A DNA stretch of 33,000 bases from Methanofollis sp. (GTDB taxonomy: Archaea > Halobacteriota > Methanomicrobia > Methanomicrobiales > Methanofollaceae). Both the position numbers and the translations under genes were made by a program. Numbering within the stretch: the stretch's first letter is position 1; every line of letters begins with the position of its first letter. The stretch covers positions 1-33,000 of the forward strand of contig NZ_JAQVNX010000017.1 in NCBI RefSeq assembly GCF_028702905.1. Direction: 5' to 3'. The notes beneath the pieces are model-generated. The model was not told the origin of the DNA and did not search any database. It saw only the letters and a program-made list of their open reading frames with translations. Of this stretch, positions 7,494-31,157 are shown in pieces.

Positions 7494-7733
7494 TCACTCT
7501 TTTTTCTCTGTTTCCGCCCGTGCGGCCATCCGCGCGATCCAGATCGTGGCAAGCACGGCCAGGATCGTGACGACGATCGCATAGGTGAACTGTGCGGCGA
7601 GGTTCTCCGTCGTCCCGAAGACCTGGACGAAGAGGGCCTGGATCGCGCCGTTCCACGCCAGCGCGGCGACCAGTCCGAATGCGGCCGTAATCAGGTCGGA
7701 GACCTTGTCGAGCACTTCTCCGTAAAAACCCAT
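7494..7733 (-). CDS. DUF5654-like small membrane protein
   Basis: A 79-residue protein with two hydrophobic helices (about 13-33 and 44-65) and a charged tail (RMAARAETEKKE). It matches my recollection of the archaeal DUF5654 family: MGFYGEVLDKVSDLITAAFGLVAALAWNGAIQ is typical. The function is unknown. I place the start at ATG 7733 and not at the longer in-frame start at 7775, because a strong TATA box on the minus strand (TTTATATA, 7762-7755) sits about 26 bases before it. That predicts a leaderless mRNA beginning at or next to the ATG. It diverges from the ATPase gene at 7829. Confidence 0.75.
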   Translation of the reverse strand: MGFYGEVLDKVSDLITAAFGLVAALAWNGAIQALFVQVFGTTENLAAQFTYAIVVTILAVLATIWIARMAARAETEKKE

Positions 7734-7754
7734 GGCCGAGCATATCCGGCATTG

Positions 7755-7762
7755 TATATAAA
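7755..7762 (-). promoter_or_regulatory. TATA box of the DUF5654-like gene
   Basis: TTTATATA on the minus strand, centred about 26 bases upstream of ATG 7733. The spacing predicts transcription starting at the start codon (leaderless). Confidence 0.6.
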
Positions 7763-7828
7763 TCTGCAGATTCAAAAAAGAGAAGCGCTTTATTTCCCCT
7801 GCGGCAATACCCGATCCTGAGGTGCACG

Positions 7829-9079: not shown

Positions 9080-9088
9080 GGCAGGTCG

Positions 9089-9631
9089 ATGGCGGAAAAA
9101 TCCCTCTACGTCCTCCTCGAAGGGCCGGACGACGAACGCTTCTTCGAACGCGTCGTCGCCCCCCTCTTTGCGGCACAGGGTTATGAGACGAAGGTCTGGA
9201 AGTACGCCTGCGAGAAGAGGCTGCGGACGATGAACCTGGTTCGGGCGCTGAGAAAGGCCGGTTTTCCCTACGTATTTGTCAGGGACATCGACAGCACCCC
9301 CTATGCCGGCCGGCGGGTGCAGGAGACGCTGAACTCTTTCGGGCACGCAATGGAGGCCGAGATGGTCGTCATCGTCATCGCGGAGATCGAGAGCTGGTAC
9401 CTCGCCGGCGTGGGGAAGGAGGAGGAGGCCGCGCTCGGCCTCCCGCCCCTCCCCGGCCGGACAGAGCGGATCACGAAGGAGGCCTTCAACGCCCTCATCC
9501 CCAGGGGCGTCTCTCGCATTGCGTTCATGCAGGCGGTCCTTGACGGTTTCGATGTCGGGCTTGCGAAGCGGCGAAACAGATCCTTCCGGTATTTTATGAA
9601 CTGGTTCGTCGAGGGCGAGCGAGTACCGTGA
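9089..9631 (+). CDS. TOPRIM-like protein partnered with the ATPase
   Basis: A 180-residue protein with TOPRIM-type spacing of acidic residues: LLEGPDDERFF (E11, D14, D15), VRDIDST (D66, D68) and IAEIESWYLA (E99, E101). It resembles DUF4276/RloB-like proteins that pair with ABC-type ATPases, although I cannot name the exact family. TOPRIM domains coordinate metal and cleave or religate nucleic acid, so this would be the effector of the pair. It begins nine bases after the ATPase stop, with a GAGGCAGG-like ribosome site (9079-9086) overlapping that gap, so the two genes are co-expressed. The remaining sequence is basic near the C-terminus (KRRNRSFRYF), which could touch nucleic acid. Confidence 0.75.
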   Translation: MAEKSLYVLLEGPDDERFFERVVAPLFAAQGYETKVWKYACEKRLRTMNLVRALRKAGFPYVFVRDIDSTPYAGRRVQETLNSFGHAMEAEMVVIVIAEIESWYLAGVGKEEEAALGLPPLPGRTERITKEAFNALIPRGVSRIAFMQAVLDGFDVGLAKRRNRSFRYFMNWFVEGERVP

Positions 9632-9686
9632 GAAATGGGAGCATTTTTCCGCTGAAGGAAGAAAGGATCATCTGCTGGACGACGCC

Positions 9687-10196
9687 ATGACGATGGGAAT
9701 GCAATATTTCAAGCCGGCCGAGATTGCCGACCTCGCCGGCCTCCCCGAGGCCGAGGTGCGGGAGTACCTGGCCGCCCACCCCGACCTCTTTCACTCCCGG
9801 AGCATCGGCCCGGCGCGCCTGTACACCACGGCGGCCGTCGAGACGGTGAAAAAACTTGCCCGGGCGGCGAAGGAGGGAAAGAGCCCGGAAGAGGCGGTCG
9901 AACCTGTCGACGCCGAGGGGCCGGAGCCCGCGCCCTCGCCGGTGGTGCAGGCCTATGCCGAGGCCCGCGACCTCAAGGACGTGGTGGCGCGGCAGGACGC
10001 CGAGATCGCCACCCTCCGTTCGGGACTGGAAAACCAGAGGCAGGCCCTTGAGGCCAGGATCGCCGCCCTTGAGGGGGCGCTCGCGGCCGAGAAGAGGACG
10101 ACCTCCCTCATCTCGGAATGGGTCGAGTATTTCGATTATGAGGTGGCGCTCCTCAAGCGCCCCCTTCTTGAAAGAATCCTGGGAAAAAAGATTTAA
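9687..10196 (+). CDS. MerR-like HTH plus coiled-coil protein
   Basis: A 169-residue protein. Residues about 5-60 read as a winged-helix/MerR-like DNA-binding segment (MQYFKPAEIADLAGLPEAEVREYLAAHP, then GPARLYTTAAVETVKKL). An acidic proline-rich linker follows, and then a coiled coil (about 92-145) with regular heptads. The C-terminus is basic and hydrophobic (LLKRPLLERILGKKI). It could be a chromosome-binding or regulatory protein; the partner and target are unknown. It lies 55 bp after the TOPRIM gene and may share its transcript. ATG 9687 and ATG 9699 are both possible starts, since no clear ribosome site distinguishes them. Its stop overlaps the convergent PEGA gene's stop in TTAA. Confidence 0.72.
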   Translation: MTMGMQYFKPAEIADLAGLPEAEVREYLAAHPDLFHSRSIGPARLYTTAAVETVKKLARAAKEGKSPEEAVEPVDAEGPEPAPSPVVQAYAEARDLKDVVARQDAEIATLRSGLENQRQALEARIAALEGALAAEKRTTSLISEWVEYFDYEVALLKRPLLERILGKKI

Positions 10197-15745: not shown

Positions 15746-16177
15746 CTACCCGGTGCTGGCGTCCTGCTCTTGCAGAGGCGGCCCGCCGCGGGCGTATGTC
15801 GCTGTGTCCTGGCCAATGCCGTTAGCCTCCGAGACACCCACTACCGAGCCGATGACGGCATAGCGCGGGCCGAAGATCTTGGTGAGATGTGACCCCGACG
15901 GCCACCATGTGTGACCCACGGCCGGCCACGTGTCGTTCATGAAGCGGCCTCAGGGGAAACTGCTCTCGATAGCGATGGCAGTGTAGCCGTGCCTCTCCAC
16001 CAGGCGCTGGAAGAGTTTGTTGCGGAGCAGGAGGCTCTCCTCACCGCCTTGGAGCGCCTCTCCGAAGCTGAGCAGTTCGACCGACGGATCGAGGGAGGCG
16101 ATGAGCGTGCCGATGGCGGCGTTGAAGGTTTCGGGTGAGTCGATGGAGAGCGGGATTGCTTCTTGTTGGAACCGCGT
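15746..16177 (-). pseudogene. Erythromycin-esterase family remnant
   Basis: One minus-strand frame reads as two joined pieces of an erythromycin-esterase-like hydrolase. The first piece (about 16177-15953) gives ETFNAAIGTLIASLDPSVEL, then LLSFGEALQGGEESLLLRNK and HGYTAIAIESSFP, the N-terminal active-site region. It then hits TGA at 15950-15952. The same frame resumes with GPRYAVIGSVVGVSEANGIG, which is the C-terminal region of the family. A normal protein is around 400 residues or more, so several hundred residues are missing between the pieces. There is also no start codon after the upstream stop. This is a dead gene with an internal deletion, lying directly beside the AT-rich island. Confidence 0.75.
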
Positions 16178-16441: not shown

Positions 16442-19400
16442 CTAATCTCGCAGGAAGTGTTTTATAATCTTATCTGCCTCTTCAAAGGCTTTTGGGAGTG
16501 CATTTTTTACTACTTTATCTGACAAATATATGGTGCTATCTTTCTTCTCTGATAGGAGCCACATAGCAGGATACACCACAAATTGGATTGATTTGTTCGG
16601 TAAAATAACTGACATGCTCCCTTTCTCGGGGGGTAATTGAATCTCAGGATGAGCATCAGCAAGCAAATGTTTGAGTGGGGTGATAATTTCATGTTGCTCA
16701 TCGATGCTCAAGGGTTTTGGGAGGTTGCCATATCTACCCCAGCTCAGGAGATCAAGGGCTGCAAGACGATCCAATTTTTCATGCACTCTCTGGTTCCAGT
16801 AATGTTTGAGACATGAGTGACATGCTGTAGCACACCTTTTGTCGCAGTTCAAGACATTCTGAATACTCTGGAGTAGTGGATCAATCATGCTCCAAAGGCC
16901 AGTGGCGTATCCCGCTCCACTTGATAGACTGTCATAGATGTAAATATCAACAAACGTTTTATCTTCCGTTTCGTGAACTCTGTGACCACCTTTAATGTCT
17001 TTGAAATCAACATCTAGAGTCCGGCTTGCAGCAAGTAAGAAAGCCTCGGTGAGTGTTGTTGCAGCGCTTGATATCCACATTCCGGAGTATTCGGTGTTTA
17101 TTTGGGACTTATCCAGTTCAAACTCAAAGACAATCATATCTGTTGCAAATGTGTGACCAAGATACACATTTACTGGATCATGAATGCACCTTGCACCTTG
17201 GATGGAGTATGGTCGGCCAATATTCTTCAATACTTTTGATTCGGGATCCTCATCACTTTGTTCTGCAACCTCTGCAGCACCGCACTTCTGGCATACATTA
17301 AATCCGTGTCCTTTCACCCCCTTGTTGATGATTCTGATCTTATCAGATCGGACTGCGGCCATTATGTGCTGACACCCAATGTCTTTCATGTCATTGCGGT
17401 CAGGTGTTGCAAAATAGCATGGCTCCTCTGCATATGACTGTTCAATTTCTGCGTGTGCTTCAGGGATTGGCTTTCCGTCTACGGGAGCAAAACCCCATGG
17501 TCGAAGCATCTTCCGTTTCTTCTCTTCTGAAATTGGTTCTCCACAGAATGGGCACACTCCCCCTATTGGATATTTTGTATCAGTCCAGCCACATTCTGGG
17601 TTTGGACATAGATACAAATCGGACAGATAATTCGGATCATCAAAGTACGGTCGTGCTTGATTTTCACGCCTATTGCCTTTTCTGAACTTTGAGTGGAAAC
17701 TGTATATGCCGCCGACTTTGTAGGTTTCTTTGTTTACAACGATTACTTTTCCTGGGGCATATTCACTAATCGCAATGTCAAGAGAACGGTCTGGTCTCTG
17801 GATAATCTTATTTCCAGATCCATCTTCGATGAAGAAACCTACAACATTTTGTGGGAACGAGTAGGTTGGTAGGATTCCCTCAAAATTCAAGTGATCCAGA
17901 AGACTGGTTTTTTGTTCTTTTTCAGCTCTGCCCTCATACAGGTCGCGATTTTTGAACACATTCCCTCGGATTCCCTCTAATTCAGTTGTGAGCCCCAATA
18001 AAAATTTTTGATAAGAATTTTCATCTCCTTTTTTTTCAGAAAGAATAGTTTCCTCCAGTTCTGGTTTGAACTGGAATGTTCTCAAAAACTCTGTGAATTC
18101 ATTATAGTAACTATCGAAGAATGATAATACTGGACATTCATACAAATCTGTCCCTTTTTCATTCAAAAACTCACTCAGGATGAGCAGATTCATATGGCGC
18201 TGAAGGAGTGTACTATTGTTTACATCTATCCATGGACTACTGGCATCGCCTGATATAATTTTCTCAGGGTGATCGAAGTACCACCCGTCATGGGGACCAT
18301 TCTGGGCATAGGTGACGATTGTTGATATTGTCGTCCCGCGTCTTCCTGCACGTCCTGCTCTCTGCTGGTAGTTCTCGCGCATTGGTGGAACATTACGGAG
18401 ACTGATAGCTGTCAGAGAACCGATATCAATACCTACCTCCATCGTTGTTGTACAACTCAAGACATCGATTGGGAGCTCATCGTCCAAGACTAGATTTTGG
18501 AACCGCATCTCGTAATTTTCTGTCGTGGACCATATGTTGTCCCGCTGATCTTTGTAGGAGAGTTGTGCTGTGTGTTCTTCTGTGTTGATAGTATGTATCG
18601 GATTTTCAGAATCTCTCTTAATTGCATCTAGAACCGGGTCTCTCCAGAACTTGTACCGTTCAAGATCCCCTTCGCTCATCTCATAGACGTCTGATGAACC
18701 ACAATGTGCACATTTCCCAAGCAAAGTATATGGGAAAATATTGGAACATGTCCTGCAACGGTACCACTTATGTTTGTCATTAAATTTTAATGCGATTTTA
18801 TCCAGAATAAGGAAATATCTGTTTTCTTCCTCACCACTTCCCCGACCAAGGAATGTTTCGGAAAGTGTGAAAATGATCCAATTAATCTGTTCCTGAGTGT
18901 ATATTTGCCCTAGTATTTTCTTGAATTTGGATGGTATTTTCTGTAGGTCTTTCTCCTCTACACCAAACCTATCGTATTTACGAAGAGCGATATTGAACCG
19001 TATTTGATTTGAAATCTGGTTTCCAATAGCAAAAGAGTTCGTACAATGATAGTAAGCCCAAGCGGTGAAGAGGGAAATAAACTCTTCTTCAGACATCTTG
19101 ATATCATGTTCCTCGAATGATTCAAGGCACTCTGCAATGTCATATTTGTCCGAGGGTTCAATCCAACCAAGTCCGAGATCTGTCAAAGACCTGAAAGGGG
19201 AGCAGAGATTTTTCAGGAGTTGTTCTGAAAATAGTCCGGGTTTATTCTTGTAATCGCTAATGATTCTATCATATCTTACCGATGTATTTCGCCTTTCTGC
19301 TTTTTCAATAGTACGTTTGATTTTTTCCAAATCTTCGTTAAATCGGGTCTTATCCCCTCCATAGAACAGACGGAGGTGATTTTTGTCTGCAATCTCCAAA

Positions 19401-21757
19401 AATGCAGGATAGAGCATATCAAGTGTTACAACACTCCCTGTGGTTTCAGTCCATTGCTGTAAATGGTTGGCCGCCAGAACTAAAACCGCTCTTGCAGCCT
19501 GATCATCTGCTGTCCTGGTCATATCTTTAGCAAGTACCGCGGCTCTTTGTCTGCTGTCTGAGAATACAAGGACTTTCCTCCCGGCATTTGGCTGTTGCTT
19601 AAGTTTTTCTTCATCAAATATTGCAGGTGGTTGGACTGACAATTGTGACGAAACAATGTTGTAAAATGGCTCGTTTCCTTTCGTAGAAAAATCAGAAAAG
19701 GAGTAGTAACTCAGTGGCTTTCCACATTTTGGGCATTGGCTAAATGTTAGTTGTTCTGGCTTTCCTTTTACTGGCTTAAGAGAGTAGCAAACCTCTAAGA
19801 ATCCATCCTCTCCAGCACGAATGTTGTTAAAATGGATGAAACCGGTCTTTGCATCAAGCCACCCGTAACGGATATCTCCCTTTTTTCTATGATAATTCTG
19901 CGGTATGATGTAGAGATGTACTTCCTTCAACTCTTTCCCAAATATTTCTCCGTGAGTACGCCAGAGATAGTTCTTTTCCTCGGAATCCTCCGCATTGAGC
20001 AAGTATCCTTTGAGAAACAGGGCTCCACATCTTCTATCGTTGATCAACTCATAGATTTTCCCACCGCAGTGAGGGCAGGTGTCCCACTCACTGTCTGAGT
20101 AGATCTTACCGAGAGTGATACCGTCACCAGCATGTTTTTCTGGGCAGTTCGGATTTGTACATGCGTACAATCCCTGTAGACCACGGAAAAACATGTGAAG
20201 TCTTGCAGGAAAGAGAACTTGCCTGTCTTTTTTAGCAAGTGGTAGTAGTGATAGAAGAACTTGTGTTGCCGAAAGTGCAGTTTTGGTATCATCATGTGGG
20301 AACGCAATCTCTGCAAGTTCGGTGATCCCGGTAGCGTTTCCTGCTGTTTGATTTATTATCCGTTGTATGGGACTGTATTTTGGCAATGTTTCAAATAACC
20401 ATGTTTCTAGTTCCTTGATAGTATCATATGGGGGTCTTGTCCCATCAATTTCTTGGAAAAATCTGTGGATTGCTAGTACTTTTGTTGTATCATCAAGCTG
20501 GAAATCATCTAGAGGGAAATTACTTATCTTATTTGCAGAAAAATCAACGGGATTTAGGAGATCGATCTTTTTATTTGTTCCAATTATTATCGAGAATGTA
20601 TCCTTCTCGGATGAAGTGATCTCCCTTAGATATTTTTTTAGTTCGATTTTCTTTTCCTCGGTATCAACAGGAATACTTGCGCTGGTGAGAATAAACCGTA
20701 CTTTATCGCGCGTAATTCCTAACTTGTACATTAGCCGGCGAATGAGGAGAGCCACCTCTCCCCCCGCTGATCCACGATACATATGTGCTTCATCAATGAC
20801 CACTAGGAGTTTGTTCTCTGGAGATTCATTTAACCAGTCCCTTGTGTTTGACCAGAATGGCTGTTCGATCTGCCGAATTAGCATGTATTGGAGCATTGAG
20901 TAATTTGTGACGAGAATGTCAGGGCAATAATCCTGCATTTCCTTACGGGTGATTAATTCCGCATCCCGCAGAGCAGGTTGATGAATCCCCTTTTTTAGAT
21001 TTGCAGTATAGGTTTTCAGATCATATTTTGAGGGGTACTTCCCCAGCGATTTGAGCTCCGCGATCAACTCGGGACTACGGTCGATCAGGTCGCGTTCCAG
21101 CGTTTTTGCCAGTTCTGTATTCTTTTCTTTTACAGGTTCACCAGGATATGGTGTCCTACCCGTGTACATTCCGAATTGAGGAATACGGGTGTGTGTGCCA
21201 CCAGTATACTCCGTAAAAAGTGTGTAATACTCTCCACCATAGTCCCCGATCATTTTCCGCAAACGACCAATCTGATCTGCGACCAGTGCATTCATTGGGT
21301 AGAGCAGCAACGCCCTAATACCTCTTTTATTCCACGAATCTGGACATGTTTTTGCTTCATTCGCAAGATTTGCGACAAGAGGCCACATGAAACACTCGGT
21401 CTTTCCAGAACCTGTGCCTGTTGTCACCAGAATGTCGCTCCCTTGGTAAAACTCTTCAAGCGCCTTAACCTGGTGACTATAAGGATCTTTGAAAACCCCT
21501 AAATTTTTGGTACTCATTTGAAAAAGGAAATCCTTGATATTTTGGGGGATATCAGCATTAACCAATCCATCTTTTGATATCTGGTATGTTTGATTTGATT
21601 CGATGTAGGGATCTTTGTAAATTGAGTCTTTTTCATCTAAAAGATCTTTTGATGCGCTCAAAAGAAGATCGTTCTCACCAAAGTATTGTGCCCGGATGTA
21701 ATCCTTCAGTTTTGCAGCAAGTTCATGGTGTATATGTTGAACACTATATTCAGCCAT
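16442..21757 (-). CDS. Giant DEAH helicase with DUF1998 domain (DruE-like)
   Basis: A 1771-residue superfamily 2 helicase. Lobe 1 has a Q-motif-like SHQVKALEEF (94-103), Walker A TGTGSGKT (113-120), DEAH (322-325) and TSAS (358-361). Lobe 2 begins with RKVLVFSDSRQRAA near residue 730 and continues with DVLSCTTTMEVGIDIGSL and YQQRAGRAGRRG (about 1095-1145), so both lobes carry long insertions. Several zinc-type cysteine clusters are visible: CTNPNC/CPHCGG, CPKCGK, CRTC/CAHCG, CPNPEC/CPFCGE and CQKCG. The C-terminus (about 1570-1680) is a DUF1998/MrfA-like module with CDKRCATACHSCLKHYWNQRVHEKLDRLAALDLL. Size and layout resemble DruE of Druantia; DISARM splits these functions between DrmA and DrmB. 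It is the last gene of the operon. GGTGAT precedes its ATG, which overlaps the previous gene by 8 bp. Confidence 0.93.
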   Translation of the reverse strand: MAEYSVQHIHHELAAKLKDYIRAQYFGENDLLLSASKDLLDEKDSIYKDPYIESNQTYQISKDGLVNADIPQNIKDFLFQMSTKNLGVFKDPYSHQVKALEEFYQGSDILVTTGTGSGKTECFMWPLVANLANEAKTCPDSWNKRGIRALLLYPMNALVADQIGRLRKMIGDYGGEYYTLFTEYTGGTHTRIPQFGMYTGRTPYPGEPVKEKNTELAKTLERDLIDRSPELIAELKSLGKYPSKYDLKTYTANLKKGIHQPALRDAELITRKEMQDYCPDILVTNYSMLQYMLIRQIEQPFWSNTRDWLNESPENKLLVVIDEAHMYRGSAGGEVALLIRRLMYKLGITRDKVRFILTSASIPVDTEEKKIELKKYLREITSSEKDTFSIIIGTNKKIDLLNPVDFSANKISNFPLDDFQLDDTTKVLAIHRFFQEIDGTRPPYDTIKELETWLFETLPKYSPIQRIINQTAGNATGITELAEIAFPHDDTKTALSATQVLLSLLPLAKKDRQVLFPARLHMFFRGLQGLYACTNPNCPEKHAGDGITLGKIYSDSEWDTCPHCGGKIYELINDRRCGALFLKGYLLNAEDSEEKNYLWRTHGEIFGKELKEVHLYIIPQNYHRKKGDIRYGWLDAKTGFIHFNNIRAGEDGFLEVCYSLKPVKGKPEQLTFSQCPKCGKPLSYYSFSDFSTKGNEPFYNIVSSQLSVQPPAIFDEEKLKQQPNAGRKVLVFSDSRQRAAVLAKDMTRTADDQAARAVLVLAANHLQQWTETTGSVVTLDMLYPAFLEIADKNHLRLFYGGDKTRFNEDLEKIKRTIEKAERRNTSVRYDRIISDYKNKPGLFSEQLLKNLCSPFRSLTDLGLGWIEPSDKYDIAECLESFEEHDIKMSEEEFISLFTAWAYYHCTNSFAIGNQISNQIRFNIALRKYDRFGVEEKDLQKIPSKFKKILGQIYTQEQINWIIFTLSETFLGRGSGEEENRYFLILDKIALKFNDKHKWYRCRTCSNIFPYTLLGKCAHCGSSDVYEMSEGDLERYKFWRDPVLDAIKRDSENPIHTINTEEHTAQLSYKDQRDNIWSTTENYEMRFQNLVLDDELPIDVLSCTTTMEVGIDIGSLTAISLRNVPPMRENYQQRAGRAGRRGTTISTIVTYAQNGPHDGWYFDHPEKIISGDASSPWIDVNNSTLLQRHMNLLILSEFLNEKGTDLYECPVLSFFDSYYNEFTEFLRTFQFKPELEETILSEKKGDENSYQKFLLGLTTELEGIRGNVFKNRDLYEGRAEKEQKTSLLDHLNFEGILPTYSFPQNVVGFFIEDGSGNKIIQRPDRSLDIAISEYAPGKVIVVNKETYKVGGIYSFHSKFRKGNRRENQARPYFDDPNYLSDLYLCPNPECGWTDTKYPIGGVCPFCGEPISEEKKRKMLRPWGFAPVDGKPIPEAHAEIEQSYAEEPCYFATPDRNDMKDIGCQHIMAAVRSDKIRIINKGVKGHGFNVCQKCGAAEVAEQSDEDPESKVLKNIGRPYSIQGARCIHDPVNVYLGHTFATDMIVFEFELDKSQINTEYSGMWISSAATTLTEAFLLAASRTLDVDFKDIKGGHRVHETEDKTFVDIYIYDSLSSGAGYATGLWSMIDPLLQSIQNVLNCDKRCATACHSCLKHYWNQRVHEKLDRLAALDLLSWGRYGNLPKPLSIDEQHEIITPLKHLLADAHPEIQLPPEKGSMSVILPNKSIQFVVYPAMWLLSEKKDSTIYLSDKVVKNALPKAFEEADKIIKHFLRD

Positions 21758-22790
21758 TCTGTATCACCCGAATGTTTAGATTCTCCAGAATTTTTGAAAC
21801 GATTGGGAGGAATACAGGCGATGTGATAAATTCTGTTCTGTCCAGAATGCTTCGAACCGGCCAAGCTATCATGTAGAACAACATTTCCTCTCTCCTAGGA
21901 AGAGTAGAGTGGAGCCTGATTTTGATTGCGTCTTTGTAGGTCGTTATTGTGGCCTGTTCCTGGTTATCATTCAAATGTCGAAGACCATACATGAATCTAC
22001 GAACATCGTGTGTTTTTATGATGTAATCCGGAAATGCGAGGGTATATACCTTGTCATTTTCTTTTTTAGCAATTCCGTAGTCGACAAGGTTATTTCGATA
22101 CACCGTTAGTTCCGACGGATGATCCAGTGATTGTTTCCAGGAATCAGAGAAGATTTGTTTTGAAAGCGGGTCAAAATATTTTCGAGCATCAGATATGATG
22201 GGGTTTAGTGTATATTTCCCATTAGCATATCTACTGTACTCAAGAACGGTGTCTTTTGCATCAATTTGTGGTATCAAAAAAAGTTCTTCCAGCGAGTACG
22301 CATTTTTTTCGGAAATCCTATTGACATACCATCCAAGCCCATGTGGCTCTCCATCTTTTCCGAATGATGTTCCGCGGAGTAAAAACAAGTCCTCGGCAAT
22401 TCTTGCGAATTTATCTGGGGGTAATTGAATTGTGTTGTCCGGTCCAGATACAAGAAATCCAGCGTATTCCAGTCTCTCTTGGATCTTTTTTGCTGGCTGA
22501 AAATTCGGTTTATCCTCAGGATAAAACCATTTCTTCACTTCTGGATAGAGATCTAAATAGGCAGAAAGGATGATATTGCATTTTCTGGTCACATGATGTT
22601 TTGTGTACAGTGTGTCTTTTGTGTCCTGATATTCCTCTCTGTCCTCAATACATCTGTCTAAAACTGCTGTTTTTATCCATTCTGAAATGGCGGAATAAAG
22701 TACCCGGGCAATATAGGCGTTTTTGTCTTCACAGGAAAAGCGAGATATCCCCAGTCCCTGTGCTATAATCTCATGGGGATATTGGATCAT
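21750..22790 (-). CDS. Operon protein 3, unknown function
   Basis: A 346-residue protein that I do not recognise. It is soluble, charged and likely helical, with no obvious nuclease, zinc or NTP-binding motif. The C-terminal stretch (YKDAIKIRLHSTLPRREEMLFYMIAWPVRSILD) contains conserved-looking aromatic and basic residues. An in-frame TTG at 22808 would lengthen it by six residues. The GGAGGAG at 22806-22800 sits nine bases before ATG 22790, so the shorter start, four bases after the upstream stop, is preferred. It overlaps the helicase start by 8 bp. Tight coupling to the helicase suggests a dedicated partner subunit. Its size and place are reminiscent of DruD in Druantia type I, but I cannot show homology. 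Confidence 0.85.
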   Translation of the reverse strand: MIQYPHEIIAQGLGISRFSCEDKNAYIARVLYSAISEWIKTAVLDRCIEDREEYQDTKDTLYTKHHVTRKCNIILSAYLDLYPEVKKWFYPEDKPNFQPAKKIQERLEYAGFLVSGPDNTIQLPPDKFARIAEDLFLLRGTSFGKDGEPHGLGWYVNRISEKNAYSLEELFLIPQIDAKDTVLEYSRYANGKYTLNPIISDARKYFDPLSKQIFSDSWKQSLDHPSELTVYRNNLVDYGIAKKENDKVYTLAFPDYIIKTHDVRRFMYGLRHLNDNQEQATITTYKDAIKIRLHSTLPRREEMLFYMIAWPVRSILDRTEFITSPVFLPIVSKILENLNIRVIQNG

Positions 22791-22794
22791 AGAG

Positions 22795-25305
22795 TTATTC
22801 TCCTCCAAGGAGTCCCACTATGATCTCTTTGAGGTCTTTTCTGCTAAGATTCTCTAGTCTTTGGTTTAGTTCTTTTGTAGTCCCTAACAATTTGCAATAT
22901 GATGCAAGCTCCAGAAGAAGTACCCCCTCCACGTTTTCTTCATCTTTTTCGTCATCTGTTTCGATAAAATCAGAGAGTATTGCAGTTCTAGTCAGATTGT
23001 ACCCATTTGTTGTATTCAGTCCTTTTGAAATCTTAACTGCTCTCTGATACAAATCCTGAAATCCCTTTGAACTTCTTTCGATAGTTACTGTACAAATCCC
23101 AGGATACAAGGCATTGGCTGCAATGGAGGTTATCATATCTTCTGAATTGATGAGGACCATATATCCTAGGACACTTGGCGGAAGTATTCGCATGTTTTCT
23201 GAGAAATCAAGTGAAAACAGGATGTATTTTTCGGGGTTTTCATCAAGAATGTCCTTTGCGAGATGCGTATAACAATATTCGTCAATGGAACCGATGACAT
23301 TTTGAAGAAGAACAATATTTCCTCTTGTCTTTTTCACAGTGTTTAACAGTGAAGAATAGTTGTTGTAACCAGTTGGAACAGAAATAACCTCGGGTGTTTG
23401 TGAATGGAGTGTAACTGAAATGGCATTAGCCATGAGATTTGCCTTACATCCTGTAAGGAGGAGAGGAGTTCTTGTCACATATGCTCCAGCAATGAGCTTA
23501 GCTAAGCTCTCAGCATATTTATTGTCAGTTCCAATGTTCTGAAGATTGTTCTTCAGATCATCGATTAGATCTTTTATATTGTCACTCTCGATCGATTCTG
23601 ATCCGTGACAATCTTTTGCCGGCTGCACTAAAGGATCTGAATTTGGCGAGGAGGCAACACTTATCTTTTCGTAATCCCCTGATGGAATTACCCCTTTAAA
23701 CAGCGCCAAATCGCCGAGGAAGTTCCCTGGATTGTGCTGGATGCTCCTAAGTTTCTGCTCACAATAGGTTTTTAATTGACCATTTATTTTTTCTAAATCT
23801 TGCTTCTTTTGTTCCAGTTGCGAGAGTTCTTCTTGAATCTGTTTTTTTTCTGAAATATCTTTCTCAAGTTGTTTCTTTGATATCTCTAATGATTCTATGT
23901 CCTTCTGGATTTTGCGAGTTTCCTCACGGAGTGACTCAAGATCTTTCTGGATGGCGTTCTGTTGATCAACTCTAAACTGTTCGCCCTCTTTGGTGATCGC
24001 CTGCATTTGTTCTTTTTTAAATGCAACAATTTCATCATCAGCAATCTTTTTTTGATTTTCTTTGTATCTGTGGAGTTCCTGTTTTATGTGGTATTCTTGT
24101 TCTGATCTGAGTCTTTCCCCTTCTGATTCAACTGTTTTCTTGAGCGATTTTAATGCATCCGTTTCAGCTGTTTTTTCCGCATTTATTACAAGTATTTCAC
24201 CATTGATTTCATCGATTATGTTCTTTAGGTCGCTAATTTCTCTCTCTAAAGCCTCTTTCTGCTCAAACAATCCTTGATTTGCAATATGTTGTATTTTATC
24301 AATGTATTTTTCGTTGATCTTTGGAACGTTTTCAATAACCCCCCTTACGAACTCCTCAACTTTATCATCGGTGTTGAGATATGCACTTATTATGTCAGTT
24401 TGTAACTCAAGCCACTGCTTATTCTCTGGAGATAGTGTAAATACAGGCCGTAATTTCGGATTTGAGAGGGCTTCGGTGACAATTTTGTTCACTAATTTCT
24501 TATCACCCTCTGAGTAATTCAGGCGAGAGGCGATGCGGTAAAAATATCCTGCAAAGCGAGTTGAATCAGTATGAAGAATCAGGGTATCTAACTTGTCCTG
24601 TTGACCGAATTTCATCTTTTTGTAGATGAACCTTCGAGTCAGGTCTGAACCGTTATCTGGGATTGAATTTTTGTATAATGGATCAAAAGAATCAATAACG
24701 TCTGTTCTTTCGATTCTATATCGATCCAATGACGACCTTCTATCGGTTACAAAAAGTAACTCATTATACCGCAGACTGGATGTTGCTTTCGTTATCTCAA
24801 CACAGAAGTAATGTTCTTCATCGCAATCATAGACTACGAGGAGATTTTCTGAAAATGTGTCGGGGACAACGATACCATTTTCCAATATCTGTGCGAGTGC
24901 ATCATCAGAATCCCCCACCCGTCTCATATGTTCTAGGGATTCTGGCGAAGTTTCAGGATTCTGCAAGAAGATGACTTCGTAATAATTATATTTGCAAGGG
25001 GGTTTAGGATGAAGTGAATAGGGTGCTGCGTCATAAACCTCCGCATTGGCGCTTTCTTTCCACATCCAGATGCCTACATTGTCATGCCCCCATTGATCAG
25101 AGTTTTCCTCCAATTTAATCGGTATGAGCATGTGTCCGTTGTCTGGATTGGTGTAGATCGTACCTATGGTATTTACTCGACCTTTTTTACCCCACTCTTT
25201 TGTGGAAATGTCTGCGATCCTCAAGACTTTGAAGTCATGGTCGCCAAACTTCACTGGAATCCCGATACAGCAACGTACATTGAAATCTTTTTTTGGGTTT
25301 GCCAT
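22795..25305 (-). CDS. Operon protein 2: coiled-coil with degenerate AAA-like domain
   Basis: An 836-residue protein. The N-terminal half (1-330) is a globular region of unknown fold. A long coiled coil spans about 340-540, rich in E/K/Q heptads. The C-terminal third (about 590-800) reads like a AAA+ module without its catalytic residues. LLLTGCKANLMANAIS (about 612-627) sits where a P-loop would be but lacks GK[S/T]. GNIVLLQNVIGSIDEYCY (about 660-677) is Walker B-like, and KYILFSLDFSENMRILPPSVLGYMVLI resembles a McrB-type sensor/arginine-finger region. It may be a structural or DNA-recognition partner of the helicase. GGAGGT nine bases before the ATG supports the start, which shares one base with the upstream stop. 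Confidence 0.9.
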   Translation of the reverse strand: MANPKKDFNVRCCIGIPVKFGDHDFKVLRIADISTKEWGKKGRVNTIGTIYTNPDNGHMLIPIKLEENSDQWGHDNVGIWMWKESANAEVYDAAPYSLHPKPPCKYNYYEVIFLQNPETSPESLEHMRRVGDSDDALAQILENGIVVPDTFSENLLVVYDCDEEHYFCVEITKATSSLRYNELLFVTDRRSSLDRYRIERTDVIDSFDPLYKNSIPDNGSDLTRRFIYKKMKFGQQDKLDTLILHTDSTRFAGYFYRIASRLNYSEGDKKLVNKIVTEALSNPKLRPVFTLSPENKQWLELQTDIISAYLNTDDKVEEFVRGVIENVPKINEKYIDKIQHIANQGLFEQKEALEREISDLKNIIDEINGEILVINAEKTAETDALKSLKKTVESEGERLRSEQEYHIKQELHRYKENQKKIADDEIVAFKKEQMQAITKEGEQFRVDQQNAIQKDLESLREETRKIQKDIESLEISKKQLEKDISEKKQIQEELSQLEQKKQDLEKINGQLKTYCEQKLRSIQHNPGNFLGDLALFKGVIPSGDYEKISVASSPNSDPLVQPAKDCHGSESIESDNIKDLIDDLKNNLQNIGTDNKYAESLAKLIAGAYVTRTPLLLTGCKANLMANAISVTLHSQTPEVISVPTGYNNYSSLLNTVKKTRGNIVLLQNVIGSIDEYCYTHLAKDILDENPEKYILFSLDFSENMRILPPSVLGYMVLINSEDMITSIAANALYPGICTVTIERSSKGFQDLYQRAVKISKGLNTTNGYNLTRTAILSDFIETDDEKDEENVEGVLLLELASYCKLLGTTKELNQRLENLSRKDLKEIIVGLLGGE

Positions 25306-26903
25306 TACTTTTCAACCTCCGGATAGAATTCAGAAATGAGATGGTCGTACGCCTTCTGTGGTATTTTTCCAGATCTTAATGTCTGGCTGAGATAACTACT
25401 GACTTTAGGATACTTTTCAAGATGGCCCAGAATATATTTCACTTTCACGGGGGTCGATATAAACGTACCTCCCATTAGAATGAGTTCCGGATACGTTTCT
25501 TCGTCTTTCTTTACTGAGTATCTTCCCTTTGGCTGGATGGGTTTTGGAATGCTTACGTGATGTATCGCGTCCAGTCCGTGACGTACGCAAATATTATCTC
25601 CTTTGGATAAGTTTAGAAATGCAAGAATAGCCTGTTCATTCCAGTAAACACTTTTTAGTTGTTTTTCTGAGTAATGATAAATGTCACATTTACAGTCTGA
25701 TTTGAAGGACAAGTTTGCTCTATCCTTGAGGGAAAAGGAGTCTCCATTTTCAAGTGGTTTTTTTGCGTAATCAAGTGTTATTTCTGGAATGTAGTAATGA
25801 AATATTTCTTCTGGATATTCGCATGTGGGGTGGGCCTCATATGATCCATCAGAGGATTTGACGTGCGTTGGACCCCTGACAGAGTGACATAACAACCATC
25901 CCGCTTTATTAGGTATTTTTTGGATTAGTCTGCGAGATTGTCCATCCGTATCCTGATAATAGGATGTGTCTGTTTGTGCCTGATTGAGGACAGCCGTTGG
26001 TTTGCTGTAAATTTGCCTCTTTCCAACCTGCACATGAGGAGGCCAGAGGGGAATTAGTGGGGGATGCCACTCGACAAGCGTGACCCCTAAGTTGTCTGCA
26101 AATTCTATGGCCTCTTCGGTGACTTTGGTAAACTGCACCCGGTAGACCATCCATTTTGATTCGAAGCCATATGAATCTCCCTCTAATTCCCCTAATGGCT
26201 CGTATTCGAGAAATTCTTCAGTGTCATCCGGTATTCCAAAGGCAGTTGCAAAATAGTAGTATTTGTCTGTGTTTATCTCTCCGTTGTCGGATATACAACG
26301 AGCATAATTTTTACTGTATCTAAACAGTGCCCCCTCTTCTGGAAGTCCTGATAGATCCTCCCCCCAGATTTTAATTATGTCGTGGCCGACTGGTGATTCA
26401 CTGTATTCGAGAGAGTAATAATCATATATCCACTTTAACTGGAGGTAAGTTGTTTCTCCTGGAATTAATTGATTAGAGAGGATTCTGTTCTCTTTAAGTT
26501 CTGCATTATTTGGATTAATGATCCGTACTATGAGTTTTTCATTTCTGGCGGCTACAACAGTCTTCTCTTCCAATGGAGGAAAACCAAGAAAAAGCCCGAA
26601 TTTTCCACCCATCTTCAAAATATAGATCCGTTTTGGATGTTGCCTTAATTTGCGTTCCTCTTGTTGCCTCTGATATTGAACCGCATATACACTATCTGAA
26701 TAGTTGGGGCAGGTGTAATTTTTTGGATTATTGGGGCAGTGTCTAAAATAGGTTCTTTCCTCTCCACTTGCTAATATTACTGGTTCTCCGCACGCAGGGC
26801 AAAATAAAAGCCTGCAATTGGATAAATGGTGGTTATTTGCAAAATTTTTGGCGTAGACTAACTCTTCATGTCCAGAATGTCTCTTCCATATTGCATAATC
26901 CAC
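25305..26903 (-). CDS. Operon protein 1: CoiA-like zinc module
   Basis: A 532-residue protein, first in the operon. Near the N-terminus, LLFCPACGEPVILASGEERTYFRH (32-55) followed by C56 and C65 resembles the zinc module at the start of competence CoiA-like nucleases (CPxCG...HFxH). I see no convincing downstream endonuclease motif, so it may use the module only for binding. The remaining residues form an unrecognised, beta-rich-looking body, with a C-terminal helical part (ILGHLEKYPKVSSYLSQTL). The start is GTG 26903, with GAAGG about nine bases upstream and AT-rich promoter elements near 26945-26966. The stop shares one base with the next gene's ATG. Confidence 0.88.
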   Translation of the reverse strand: MDYAIWKRHSGHEELVYAKNFANNHHLSNCRLLFCPACGEPVILASGEERTYFRHCPNNPKNYTCPNYSDSVYAVQYQRQQEERKLRQHPKRIYILKMGGKFGLFLGFPPLEEKTVVAARNEKLIVRIINPNNAELKENRILSNQLIPGETTYLQLKWIYDYYSLEYSESPVGHDIIKIWGEDLSGLPEEGALFRYSKNYARCISDNGEINTDKYYYFATAFGIPDDTEEFLEYEPLGELEGDSYGFESKWMVYRVQFTKVTEEAIEFADNLGVTLVEWHPPLIPLWPPHVQVGKRQIYSKPTAVLNQAQTDTSYYQDTDGQSRRLIQKIPNKAGWLLCHSVRGPTHVKSSDGSYEAHPTCEYPEEIFHYYIPEITLDYAKKPLENGDSFSLKDRANLSFKSDCKCDIYHYSEKQLKSVYWNEQAILAFLNLSKGDNICVRHGLDAIHHVSIPKPIQPKGRYSVKKDEETYPELILMGGTFISTPVKVKYILGHLEKYPKVSSYLSQTLRSGKIPQKAYDHLISEFYPEVEK

Positions 26904-26966: not shown

Positions 26967-27339
26967 ATGCCGCTCTTTTGTCTCATCATATGAATAGAGT
27001 TGTCGAGTTCTTGCCATACTCAAAAGAGTGCGTTTTTTGTGGCTCATATCGTGAGTGTCTAGAACGCGTACCCTTCCTCCTTCGGTTTTAAAGTGCATGA
27101 ACAGATGGTTAACTGCTTGGACCGGAGAAGATGTCCTACAAAAATTGCGAAGTTAAGATAATGTGAATTATAATGCTGCGCAGGAGAAAATTTCCTTTAT
27201 ATTCTCTTCTATAGTGTATTGGATCCTGCACAGATCCTGATCCAATCGTTGATGATCTACAGACACGCACCGTCAGTTACCGTATTACCTGGTGCTATCA
27301 GAGATGACAGCGCTCCCTCCTCCCCCTGGATAGATCCCC
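26967..27339. other. Island right border, no confident gene
   Basis: An AT-rich intergenic stretch that returns to host-like composition near 27300. It contains an eight-base inverted repeat ATTGGATC/GATCCAAT (27218-27225 and 27239-27246) and a ten-base match, CTGCGCAGGA (27176-27185), to the palindrome on the far side of the island. A 33-codon frame at 26990-27091 is too short to accept. Confidence 0.5.
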
Positions 27340-27780
27340 CTACTCCTCCCCGATATCCTCGTTCCACAGATCTGGATTCGCGGCAATGAAATCGGTCATC
27401 AGGCGCACGCACTCCTCGTCGTCCAGGACGACCACGTCTACACCCCGACTTCGGAGATACTCCTCCGGTCCCTGGAAGGTCCGGTTTTCGCCGATCACGA
27501 CCCTGGGTATTTTGTAGAGGAGGACCGTCCCGCTGCACATGTCGCAGGGGGAAAGAGTCGAGTACAGCACCGCCCGGCGGTACTCCTCCGGCTTGAGGCG
27601 GCCGGCATTCTCCAGGCAGTCCATCTCGGCGTGTAAAATGGCGCTGCCCTTCTGCACCCTCCGGTTGTGTCCCCGGCCGACGATTGTGCCGTCGATCACC
27701 AGCACCGAGCCGATGGGGATCCCGCCCTCGGCACGTCCCTGTCTGGCCTCTTCGATGGCGGCCTGCATGAATTTGTCCAT
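27340..27780 (-). CDS. Cytosine deaminase, yeast FCY1 type
   Basis: A 146-residue zinc deaminase of the CDA fold that converts cytosine to uracil in pyrimidine salvage. GGIPIGSVLV, RGHNRRVQKGSAILHAEMDCLEN (HAE zinc/catalytic motif) and YSTLSPCDMCSG (PCxxC zinc ligands) are in order. The later VVIGENRTFQGPEEYLRSRGVDVVVLDDEECVRLM and the ending NPDLWNEDIGE closely follow Saccharomyces Fcy1, which is distinct from the amidohydrolase CodA of E. coli. A longer frame exists upstream (to 27873), but MDKFMQAAIEEAR at 27780 is the natural start. It diverges from the secreted protein gene at 27927. It is a single gene with no linked permease. Confidence 0.92.
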   Translation of the reverse strand: MDKFMQAAIEEARQGRAEGGIPIGSVLVIDGTIVGRGHNRRVQKGSAILHAEMDCLENAGRLKPEEYRRAVLYSTLSPCDMCSGTVLLYKIPRVVIGENRTFQGPEEYLRSRGVDVVVLDDEECVRLMTDFIAANPDLWNEDIGEE

Positions 27781-27871
27781 TGAAACGACACCCGGATAGA
27801 GAAAGTGCTTGACGGCCCATGAACATTCCGGTCGCCGAAACTGCCGGGGTCGAGCGGTCGGGCAGGGAAGC

Positions 27872-27887
27872 AACCAAAACTATTTCT
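27872..27887 (+). promoter_or_regulatory. Conserved promoter element, secreted paralogue 1
   Basis: AACCAAAACTATTTCT, identical in the upstream region of the second paralogue and at the same distance (about 40 bases) before the start codon. It is BRE/TATA-like. The surrounding bases are also partly conserved. Confidence 0.55.
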
Positions 27888-27926
27888 CACCTGGATAGTA
27901 TTCCAACCACAAAAGGGGGGAAATCT

Positions 27927-29399
27927 GTGAGACGGTATATTCTATTGGCATGTCTCTGTGTCATGCTGGCCGGGCATGGCCTTGCACAGACAGGAGAAAC
28001 AGGTGACGTGGATGCTTTCCGGCAGATACTGGAACAGGACAACTTCAGCGTGCAGGAAGGCGGGATCGGGCATTTCGATCTCATCAAATTGTATGACGCA
28101 GGAGCGCTGCCTTCTGCATATGGAAACAATCCCGCGACAAAGTATCTGGCATATTTCGTTCCGCCGGCACCCGGGGGTACGATCGACGAACAGATAGCAG
28201 AGATAACGAAAACGCTTGGAATGAGCGGGAACACATCTGCATTCTGGAATCTCGGTCCCGACGAAGCCGTTATCTTCGTAGGACAAACGCCGCCGGAGTG
28301 CAGGTACTTCGGGTACGATAATTATCTCATGAGCAGGACGTATGGCAACGAGACCAGGTGGATCTTTGCCAACATGGGCGATTCGCTGAACAACCAGATC
28401 ATCAAGACGGAGGGGTCGCCTGGAGACCCGTACAACCAGACGACGATAGTCGTCGCCACGGCTGACAGGGGCATCGACGAGCGCATCCGTGCTGCCGCAC
28501 GTTCGGCGGGATATTCGGACGAGATGATGAACACCCAGGTGTTTCCGTCGTCCATCCTGAATATGGGCCTCGACAACACCTCCGATACGTTCGCCATATT
28601 TATCCGCCCGTCCCTCTTCACCGACAAGCAGGTAGGCGACGAGTACATCGACAACACGTCTGCGACTATCCTCCGCGTGACGCCGAAAAACACGACCCAA
28701 CTCGACCCGTATGAGTCTCCGGATATGCGGGTCAAGGGAACCGGGAAGACGGAGCTTGACCTTACGGACGATCTCAACGACCTCAGGAACGCGATTCTCG
28801 AGAAGTACAGCAACCTGAGCGCCACGGAGCTTCCGACGGCTCCGGGGTTCCCGCAAGGGATTGACGCTATCCAGCGGGGGATCGATGCCGTAGGCCCGAG
28901 CAACGATGCAACATATTTATGGAGCGCAAACCAGGCTGTCAATTCGCCGACGCCGCCCTTCTTCGACACCACGCAGTACTACGACTTCCTGCGAAACCCG
29001 CCGCTCACTCTCGGGAACGATACGAATGAATTCATCATTGTCTACGGGGTCAACCACGTAGCCACGGGCAAGGCGACGTACTCGAGCTTCACTCTCAATG
29101 GAGCGGATGTGTGGAATGGCGTCGGATCGATCACCGACGCGGACTTCAGCGGAACTGCTGAAGAGTATCTCCCCGACAATCCCAACGCGAAATACCTGTA
29201 CGTCTACAAGATCGCGAGGGACTGCGAGGGTGACCCGCACTGCTTCGAGCTTCCCTCCGGTATAGGAAGTTACGGCATCGAGCCCGACCAGCCGATCTTC
29301 ATTCTCTGGAGGAGCTACCTGGAGAGTGCTACGAAAACAGCCCCGTCCTACAACGAGATCGTGTACGACAGGGCCATAAAGTTCGAGCCGGCGGGTTAG
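27927..29399 (+). CDS. Secreted protein of unknown function, paralogue 1
   Basis: A 490-residue exported protein. The signal peptide is VRRYILLACLCVMLAGHGLA, with likely cleavage before QTGETGDVDAF. The mature part has no membrane segment, no recognised domain and several N-x-S/T sequons. Motifs shared with the downstream copy include PPECRYFGYDNYLMSR, NTQVFPSSILNMGLDNTSD, FFDTTQYYDFLRNPP and RDCEGDPHCFELPSGIGSYG. The last contains two cysteines that could pair. An ATG at 27819 would add 36 residues before the signal peptide. GTG 27927 is preferred because GGGGGG lies just before it and because the second copy shows the same arrangement. It ends before a GC hairpin terminator. Confidence 0.85.
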   Translation: MRRYILLACLCVMLAGHGLAQTGETGDVDAFRQILEQDNFSVQEGGIGHFDLIKLYDAGALPSAYGNNPATKYLAYFVPPAPGGTIDEQIAEITKTLGMSGNTSAFWNLGPDEAVIFVGQTPPECRYFGYDNYLMSRTYGNETRWIFANMGDSLNNQIIKTEGSPGDPYNQTTIVVATADRGIDERIRAAARSAGYSDEMMNTQVFPSSILNMGLDNTSDTFAIFIRPSLFTDKQVGDEYIDNTSATILRVTPKNTTQLDPYESPDMRVKGTGKTELDLTDDLNDLRNAILEKYSNLSATELPTAPGFPQGIDAIQRGIDAVGPSNDATYLWSANQAVNSPTPPFFDTTQYYDFLRNPPLTLGNDTNEFIIVYGVNHVATGKATYSSFTLNGADVWNGVGSITDADFSGTAEEYLPDNPNAKYLYVYKIARDCEGDPHCFELPSGIGSYGIEPDQPIFILWRSYLESATKTAPSYNEIVYDRAIKFEPAG

Positions 29400-29578: not shown

Positions 29579-29630
29579 GTTGTTTGCCTGGATGACAGAA
29601 TGCACGAGTAGAGCAATCGGACCGGGATAC

Positions 29631-29646
29631 AACCAAAACTATTTCT
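29631..29646 (+). promoter_or_regulatory. Conserved promoter element, secreted paralogue 2
   Basis: AACCAAAACTATTTCT, exact copy of the element before paralogue 1 and 39 bases before the TTG start. Confidence 0.55.
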
Positions 29647-29684
29647 TGCCCGGATGGTATTCCACCCCCAGAGGGGGGAAGAGT

Positions 29685-31157
29685 TTGAGACGGTACATCC
29701 TCTTTGCAATTCTCGTGGCCATGCTGGTCGGGCACGGCCTTGCACAGACAGGAGAAACGGGTGACGTGGATGCTTTCCGGCAGATACTGGAACAGGACAA
29801 CTTCAGCGTGCAGGAAGGCGAGATCGGCTATTTCGATCTTATTAAACTCTATGATTCAGGGGTGCTGCCTTCCGCATATGGAAACAATCCGGCCACAAAG
29901 TATCTGGCATACTTCGTTCCGCCGGCACCCGGATATCCGGTCGACGAACGGATAGCAGAGATAGCGAAAACACTTGGAATGAGCGGGAACACATCTTCTT
30001 TCTGGAGTCTCGGTCCCGACGAAGCTGTTGTCTTCGTAGGACAGACACCGCCTGAGTGCAGGTACTTCGGGTACGATTATTATCTCATGAGCAGGATCTA
30101 TGGCAACGAGACCAGGTGGATCTTTTCCAACATCGCCGATTCGCTGAACAATCAGGTCATCAACACGACCGGAGGGTCGGGAGATCCGTACAACCAGACG
30201 ACGATTACCGTCGCTACGGCCGACAGGGGCATTGACGAGCGTATCCGTGCCGCCGCCAGATCGGCGGGATATTCGGACGACATGATGAACACCCAGGTGT
30301 TTCCGTCGTCCATACTGAATATGGGCCTCGACAACACCTCCGATACGTTCGGCATATTTATCCGCCCGGCCCTCTTCACCGACAAGGAGGCAGGCGCCGA
30401 GTACATCAACAATACCCCGGCGACCGTCTTCCGCGTGACGCCGAAAAACACGATCGAACTCGACCCGTACGAGTCTCCGGATCTGCGGGTCAGGGGAACA
30501 GGGAAGACGGAGCTTGACCTTACGGACGATCTCGAAGATCTCAGGGCCGCGATTCTTGAGAAGCACAACAACCTGAGCGCCACGGAGCTTCCGACGAGTA
30601 TCGGATTCCCGATGGGGAATGATGCTATCCAGCGGGGAATCGATGGTGTCGGCCCCAGCAACGATGCAGCGTATCTCTGGAGCGCGAACCAGACTGTCAA
30701 CTCGCCGACGCCGCCCTTCTTCGACACCACGCAGTACTACGACTTCCTGCGAAACCCGCCGATCACCCTCGGGAACGATAAGAACGAATTCATCATCGTC
30801 TACGGGGTCAACCACGTAGCCACGGGCAAGGCGACGTACTCGAGTTTCTCCTTATATGGGGCTGATGTGTGGAATGGCGTCGGATCGATCACCGACGCGG
30901 ACTTCAGCGGAACTGCCGAGGAGTACCTCCCTGACAATCCCAACGCGAAGTACCTGTACGTCTACACGATCGCGAGGGACTGCGAGGGTGACCCGCACTG
31001 CTTCGAGCTCCCCTCCGGTATAGGAAGTTACGGTATCGAGCCTGACCAGCCGCTCTTCATTATCTGGAGGAGTTACCTGGAGGGTGCTACGAGTACCGGG
31101 CCGTCCTACAACGAGATGGTGTACGACAGGGCGATAAAGTTCGAACCCACGGGTTAG
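29685..31157 (+). CDS. Secreted protein of unknown function, paralogue 2
   Basis: A 490-residue exported protein, exactly the same length as the upstream copy and nearly the same throughout, so the pair arose by a recent tandem duplication. The signal peptide is LRRYILFAILVAMLVGHGLA, then QTGETGDVDAFRQILEQ. Differences cluster in short patches, for example GYPVDERIAEIAKT against GGTIDEQIAEITKT, and in residues around 250-285. I read the start as TTG 29685 with GAGGGGGG eight to fifteen bases upstream, matching the GTG of copy 1. The in-frame ATG at 29580 would add 35 residues with no resemblance to a signal peptide. The function is unknown; a surface or adhesion role is only a guess. Confidence 0.85.
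   Translation: MRRYILFAILVAMLVGHGLAQTGETGDVDAFRQILEQDNFSVQEGEIGYFDLIKLYDSGVLPSAYGNNPATKYLAYFVPPAPGYPVDERIAEIAKTLGMSGNTSSFWSLGPDEAVVFVGQTPPECRYFGYDYYLMSRIYGNETRWIFSNIADSLNNQVINTTGGSGDPYNQTTITVATADRGIDERIRAAARSAGYSDDMMNTQVFPSSILNMGLDNTSDTFGIFIRPALFTDKEAGAEYINNTPATVFRVTPKNTIELDPYESPDLRVRGTGKTELDLTDDLEDLRAAILEKHNNLSATELPTSIGFPMGNDAIQRGIDGVGPSNDAAYLWSANQTVNSPTPPFFDTTQYYDFLRNPPITLGNDKNEFIIVYGVNHVATGKATYSSFSLYGADVWNGVGSITDADFSGTAEEYLPDNPNAKYLYVYTIARDCEGDPHCFELPSGIGSYGIEPDQPLFIIWRSYLEGATSTGPSYNEMVYDRAIKFEPTG

Follow-up and report, generated by a model that had tools for sequence, protein, structure and literature searches.

A predicted, catalytically degenerate AAA+ domain in DruC of a Druantia type I-like operon from Methanofollis

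In a Druantia type I-like (DruBCDE) anti-phage system, the 836-aa protein described here is probably a structural subunit without catalytic activity: its dead AAA+ domain would have been kept as an assembly and docking module, with the helicase DruE acting as the motor. We put the probability of this reading at roughly 60%. The protein is encoded in a 33,000-nucleotide stretch of Methanofollis sp. DNA, analysed as a whole (the window), and is assigned by sequence and gene order to DruC, within a four-gene druB-C-D-E operon (Table 1). The motifs of an active AAA+ ATPase (Walker A, GxxxxGK[ST], and Walker B, hhhhDE) are absent from it. The dead domain is nevertheless under purifying selection, constrained rather than decaying.

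Gene content and distribution of the operon

The druC gene is the second of four co-directional genes with overlapping ends, in the order druB-C-D-E. DruE matches the PADLOC DruE1 profile across its entire length (1954 bits) and carries the Pfam domains DEAD, Helicase_C and MZB. DruC itself has a weak match to PADLOC DruC1 (E = 3.1e-9) over residues 430-634, which cover coil and the first part of the C-terminal domain. The 532-aa protein encoded upstream has no PADLOC match, and we name it DruB on the basis of gene order and of a relative at locus L023, with position and sequence in common, that matches PADLOC DruB1 (E = 5e-8). Its N-terminus resembles the cysteine-rich start of Pseudomonas putida DruB.

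Table 1. Operon genes and DruC features, in window coordinates
Feature	Residues	Positions	Strand	Description	Basis
druB		25305-26903	-	532 aa, GTG start; CoiA_N/DUF7830-like zinc-binding N-terminus	Sub-threshold Pfam matches
druC		22795-25305	-	836 aa, ATG start; coiled-coil protein with C-terminal degenerate AAA+ domain	ORF list, PADLOC, orthologues
druD		21750-22808	-	352 aa, TTG start	PADLOC DruD1, E = 1.7e-30
druE		16442-21757	-	1771 aa; YprA-like SF2 helicase with MZB domain	PADLOC DruE1, Pfam
DruC N-terminal region	1-340	24286-25305	-	Beta-rich, then helical	Low-confidence AlphaFold2 model
DruC predicted coiled coil	345-525	23731-24273	-		SMC/Rad50-type coil cross-matches; composition
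DruC AAA+-like core	576-721	23143-23580	-		AlphaFold2 model; VIA-align
DruC C-terminal helical lid-like region	722-836	22798-23142	-	Helices, pLDDT ~41-73	AlphaFold2 model
Degenerate P-loop site LLLTGCKANLMANAIS	615-630	23416-23463	-	G619 retained, loop contracted, GK[ST] absent	
Degenerate Walker B strand and conserved motif after it, VLLQNVIGSIDEYCY	665-679	23269-23313	-		
End of strand at sensor-1 position and next segment, LDFSENMRILPPSVLGYMV	699-717	23155-23211	-	Strand at model residues 195-200	

The operon DNA has a G+C content of ~38-47%, against ~54-68% in the flanking stretches. A 17-nt direct repeat with two mismatches (15838-15854 and 27699-27715) lies near both edges of this low-G+C island, and may be due to chance. 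Upstream of the operon, the gene at 27257-27877 looks cytidine-deaminase-like by eye; for the ORF as listed there, neither PADLOC nor Pfam gives a match. Two plus-strand ORFs (27819-29399, 526 aa, and 29580-31157, 525 aa) look like tandem paralogues from their cross-matches at the DNA level, and no Pfam or NCBIfam assignment held up for either. Outside the island, an AAA_21/AbiEii-like ATPase gene (7829-9079, plus strand; Pfam, 1e-28) is possibly another defence gene. Upstream of the operon's relatives there is a PDC-S05 match at L022 (6824-7870; 3.2e-158) and the C-terminal part of an HmaC match at L023 (51-1292; 2.9e-134), and these defence-like genes place the operon in defence neighbourhoods.

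A search for DruC in 100 relatives returned 13 genomes with a match, of which 12, the window genome included, are retained; the match in G005 (L013) is a chance cross-match (E = 8.7e-4) to a long coiled-coil, apparently Rad50/SbcC-like protein. A profile built from 11 archaeal sequences (A1) found DruC in 12 of the 232 genomes of the class, the nearest named ones being Methanogenium and Methanofollis. The archaeal proteins form two groups, close orthologues of 828-836 aa that are 65-92% identical and diverged forms of 700-721 aa with 25-29% identity over the whole alignment, and the frame is open in all DruC found. All 12 archaeal genomes with DruC keep the gene order B-C-D-E: besides the window, these are represented by nine other regions and by L022 and L023 (from genomes G057 and G001). 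Among viral contigs, a scan with the DruC alignment gave no match, and a scan with DruE gave 16 loci. The A1 profile found DruC-like proteins at three of these: L034 and L035, which have the same layout and a 924-aa DruC, and L045, where the match is a DruG-like protein, apparently of a Druantia II locus; the remaining 13 (L036-L041 among them) have no such match. Searching plasmids with tblastn, we found no relative of the window DruC, and for P. putida DruC only the query itself.

Existing profiles leave a gap here: PADLOC misses DruC at L023, and the family profile PDLC00007 covers the archaeal branch poorly, since it finds 3 of the 294 genomes of the phylum (the window's own included). The PDLC00006 profile was rejected for calling DruC because it matches 10 of 14 control genomes, behaviour expected of a coiled-coil profile. 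A DruE survey count of 238 of 294 genomes is likewise unused, general helicases being mixed in.

The archaeal operon shares with Druantia type I (DruABCDE) of Escherichia coli and P. putida the order DruB-C-D-E and matching DruE and DruD profiles, and it differs in the N-terminal part of DruC, which is longer and diverged in the archaeal system. In hhalign comparisons, the archaeal C-terminal domains align with E. coli and P. putida DruC at probability 90 (E = 1.5e-6) and with L034/L035 at 95 (E = 5e-8), against 0.1-0.2 for reversed controls, which argues that this domain is common to Druantia I DruC proteins. For L045 the values are 0.5, 8.6 with a merged profile, and 21 for the L034/L035 pair, which hints at a link to the Druantia II protein. 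Type I has DruA, whereas the archaeal operon does not: DruA (DUF4338, PF14236) was found in none of the 12 DruC-bearing archaeal genomes and in neither of the two viral records holding L034 and L035, while the same profile recovered it from two of two plasmid records that carry DruA. We therefore call the operon Druantia I-like (DruBCDE) rather than a full five-gene type.

The nucleotide site of DruC

The first-pass annotation had noted a P-loop position without GK[S/T], and indeed there is no GK[ST] anywhere in the window DruC; the loop has lost length in addition to its lysine. In the AlphaFold2 model described below, the turn between beta1 and alpha1 has about 3 residues. A P-loop typically holds about 7 residues between the first strand and the helix, and by this comparison the loop of DruC appears contracted, beyond mutation of its residues. 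The annotation had further read a Walker B-like segment. A strand does occur there, in AAA+ order, but it is not a working Walker B, as it ends in Q668-N669 and the conserved D675-E676 comes seven residues on (VLLQN...DEYCY). All three motifs of Table 1 fall within positions 22795-23500, where they had been placed, and the model sets out the proposed order: a strand, then the helix of the first motif, further strands at the other two motifs, and the lid.

The P-loop pattern was looked for in 16 DruC-like proteins: 12 archaeal ones (including that of the window, and with L002 and L003 nearly identical), P. putida DruC, L034, L035 and L045. None of the 16 has [GA]xxxxGK[ST] at the P-loop site; a single match to that pattern, at residue 691 of L012, is in the C-terminal tail, away from the site. 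The DruC of E. coli, so named by NCBI, has FSGSLADIIADAIA at this position, the same dead site, again with no GxxxxGK[ST]. In the A1 alignment the loop varies (LTGCKANLMANAIS, LIGNTSQLLAETIS, CAGNSANEMARIIS, VIGSQARKAAEIIS), and only its first glycine, G619, is invariant. Beyond the loop, N669, G672, E676, Y677, Y679 and P709 are invariant in all 11 archaeal rows. In the archaeal rows the last two residues of the Walker B strand are QN, KN, EN or DN; elsewhere they are KG, HG or EG. An aspartate is retained only in L012. Thus the lysine loss that the annotation had suggested examining in homologues is conserved, and an intact Walker A was seen at the site in none of the homologues found. Given this distribution and the purifying selection on the domain, the loss of the P-loop and of the Walker B acidic pair is best read as ancestral and maintained.

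No GTP-hydrolysis signature (NxxD/NxD) could be placed by eye in the dead site of the window DruC, and attempts to align it to McrB gave nothing reliable. The letters NRA or NRS after the Walker B strand are confined to P. putida DruC and L045. The former has KGANRSA; in the latter, the 733-aa DruG-like protein (7694-9895 of its locus), LEGFNRA stands at the Walker B position and recalls the McrB DEINRA signature without its acidic pair.

The invariance of some residues around the former pocket (G619 and N669, for example) could also mean that a nucleotide or nucleotide-like ligand is bound by DruC but not hydrolysed, and that DruC switches conformation as a sensor. Passages of a study of Druantia III describe DruH with ATP at its dimer interface (PMC13192584), which is in keeping with such a role. 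However, the model gives about three residues to the turn that would have to enclose the phosphates, and the acidic pair has been replaced in one way or another across the family, and we consider a ligand sensor rather unlikely.

The family tie of the domain to McrB is a separate matter. Profile comparison revealed no sequence link between DruC and K-12-type McrB: hhalign of the DruC C-terminal domain against four McrB sequences gave probabilities of 0.1-0.8, hardly above reversed controls and from thin alignments. These four (one of which, from Rhodococcus, has no Walker B pattern match) were used out of nine relatives fetched; the other five were dropped, three for a long Walker A-B stretch and two for having no Walker B pattern match. 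McrB is not among the listed VIA-align matches of the DruC model, which excludes nothing. The McrB link of the domain therefore rests on the literature, and DruC would share with the McrB/CnuB GTPases the AAA+ fold class while having lost Walker A and B.

Mixed rings with dead AAA+ subunits are known, clamp loaders being an example, and DruC might by the same token be the inactive member of a ring whose live AAA+ partner is encoded elsewhere. The window genome does hold an McrB relative, similar over the GTPase region, on contig C112. Against this, a query with K-12 McrB finds a relative in 2 of the 12 DruC-bearing genomes, that of the window included (distant relatives can be missed), and Pfam detects no second AAA+ protein among the four operon genes. 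DruC is unlikely to need an McrB partner in general, and a mixed ring seems to us improbable.

Predicted fold and selective constraint

AlphaFold2 was run on DruC residues 500-836 with an alignment of six rows. The best model has a mean pLDDT of 66.8 and a pTM of 0.69, against pLDDT means of 54.5-59.6 for the other four; by ten-residue block, values over residues 576-720 are mostly 75-87, with a few of 65-67 and one of 57. Its elements follow in the order strand 615-618, helix from 622, strand, helix, strand 664-668, helix, strand 694-699, strand, and lid helices of lower confidence. Compared with 984 chains by VIA-align, it has AAA+ proteins in all 50 listed rows (Z 9.9-11.1), judged so by their titles or, in some cases, as known AAA+ proteins; up to 235 residues are aligned, lid included. 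The best match is 2r44 (Z 11.1), titled a putative ATPase and which we take to be a MoxR family member, with MCM chains at 10.9, CbbQ at 10.3 and NorQ at 10.1. All rows lie within about 1 Z of one another, so they place the domain in AAA+ and in no particular sub-clade. On this evidence the C-terminal domain is predicted with good confidence to be an AAA+ core with a weaker helical lid, the outcome that the first-pass annotation had expected of a structure prediction.

A three-layer alpha/beta fold other than AAA+ was considered as well. Pfam, run at loose thresholds on whole DruC and six C-terminal domains, gave nothing AAA-like, phmmer of DruC against PDB sequences gave one chance match, and Foldseek alone was weak, with one match at E <= 0.001 (best E 7e-4, TM 0.24) and TM-scores of ~0.2-0.27, its top rows being mostly AAA+. 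Set against the uniform VIA-align rows and an alignment that reaches into the lid, such a fold is very improbable.

The annotation's picture of a coiled coil ending in a pseudo-AAA module thus gains support from fold prediction and conservation. Residues 345-525 are rich in E, K, Q and R (47%) and poor in P and G (3%); a heptad-periodicity test gave similar values for the coil and the C-terminal domain, was not discriminating and is not used as evidence. The N-terminal region is kept in the archaeal DruC proteins and in the two from viral contigs, and its AlphaFold2 model (pLDDT 41) is too poor to interpret.

Selection was estimated by the Nei-Gojobori method between the window DruC and its relatives. 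For the AAA core, dN/dS is 0.15, 0.21, 0.14 and 0.23 in the four more diverged pairs (L063, L064, L065 and L022) and 0.42 against L061 and L062, where dS is merely 0.025. For the lid, the four diverged pairs give 0.21-0.44, whereas the two near-identical pairs yield no value. Loss of the catalytic motifs and the weaker constraint on the lid are what a decaying relic without function would show, yet the low core ratios, the intact frames and the presence of the same loss in archaea and bacteria leave that reading with next to no credence.

Proposed role and relation to known systems

The preprint of Bell et al. (2025) describes Druantia I and II proteins as inactivated CnuB homologues (PMC12458937). 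At the level of protein class, then, the inactivated-domain idea is correct in kind but has been in print before, so our result is less of a surprise; the main text names no gene, and DruC does not occur in it. The Type IV CoCoNuT of that preprint resembles the archaeal system: there too, a coiled coil is joined to an AAA+ domain that is inactivated, and the operon includes a YprA-like helicase. In passages on CnuB (PMC11090510) the coiled coil lies N-terminal to the NTPase domain, an arrangement that DruC matches by cross-match and composition. CoCoNuT Types I-III differ in having an McrC/CnuC partner in the operon, for which the four DruBCDE proteins show no Pfam match. Elsewhere, DruC is given as of unknown function and without a family in passages of PMC7251935, and a rumen survey is the literature match for Druantia in archaea or methanogens. 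Relative to the cited passages, what is new here is that the domain is assigned to DruC by name, that its loop is contracted, that it is under purifying selection, that the archaeal branch lacks DruA, and that the finding extends to archaea and a bacterial branch.

DruC and DruB evolve faster than DruE: for L066-L069, identity is 29-33% for DruC, 26-34% for DruB, 38-42% for DruD and 55-59% for DruE. Druantia III likewise has a fast-evolving partner, DruH, beside a conserved DruE helicase, and passages of that study argue that this partner acts as the sensor (PMC13192584). The analogy would make DruB and DruC candidates for sensing and scaffolding.

We favour a model in which DruC is an assembly and docking subunit. 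The losses from its C-terminal AAA+ fold, of the phosphate-binding loop and of the acidic pair of Walker B, would predate the split of the Druantia I branches; from sequence and model, DruC would not be expected to hydrolyse NTP. The retained domain may dock on DruE and/or DruB, with the conserved motif after the dead Walker B as a putative docking face, and the long coiled coil would join it to the N-terminal region, which is possibly involved in recognition and could sense infection. DruE would power the ATP-driven work on invading DNA. Its translation contains TGTGSGKTE, VIDEAHMYRG and QRAGRAGRRG, and these intact helicase motifs make it the only evident motor in the operon; together with the family matches they support the annotation's proposal that the helicase supplies ATP turnover. 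A scaffold role for DruC is likely, and it may also recognise DNA or protein.

A more tentative reading, more likely wrong than right, is that Druantia I and II are built on a common core: a coiled-coil scaffold with an AAA+ domain that is ancestrally dead and loop-contracted, driving a live SF2 helicase. DruA would then be a later or dispensable addition, the post-Walker B motif (N-x-x-G-x-x-D/E-E-Y-x-Y in the archaeal branch) would replace the NTP site as a permanent docking face, and the archaeal four-gene form would be the minimal machine. The literature passages and listings examined hold no description of a working mechanism for Druantia I. If DruC is an ancestrally dead AAA+ scaffold, this shows where ATP is and is not used, and the DruA-less archaeal DruBCDE offers a small system for reconstitution.

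Divergence along the operon is uneven in one comparison. Against L063 no mosaic pattern is seen. Against L061 and L062, identity is 95-99% over much of the length, falls to 82-90% in the middle of druE, and is 91-93% in 5' druC and 3' druB (window positions 18000-19500 and 24000-26000); within druC, dS is 0.00-0.03 in the 3' part and 0.30 in the 5' part. This mosaic divergence suggests recombination or variable recognition blocks.
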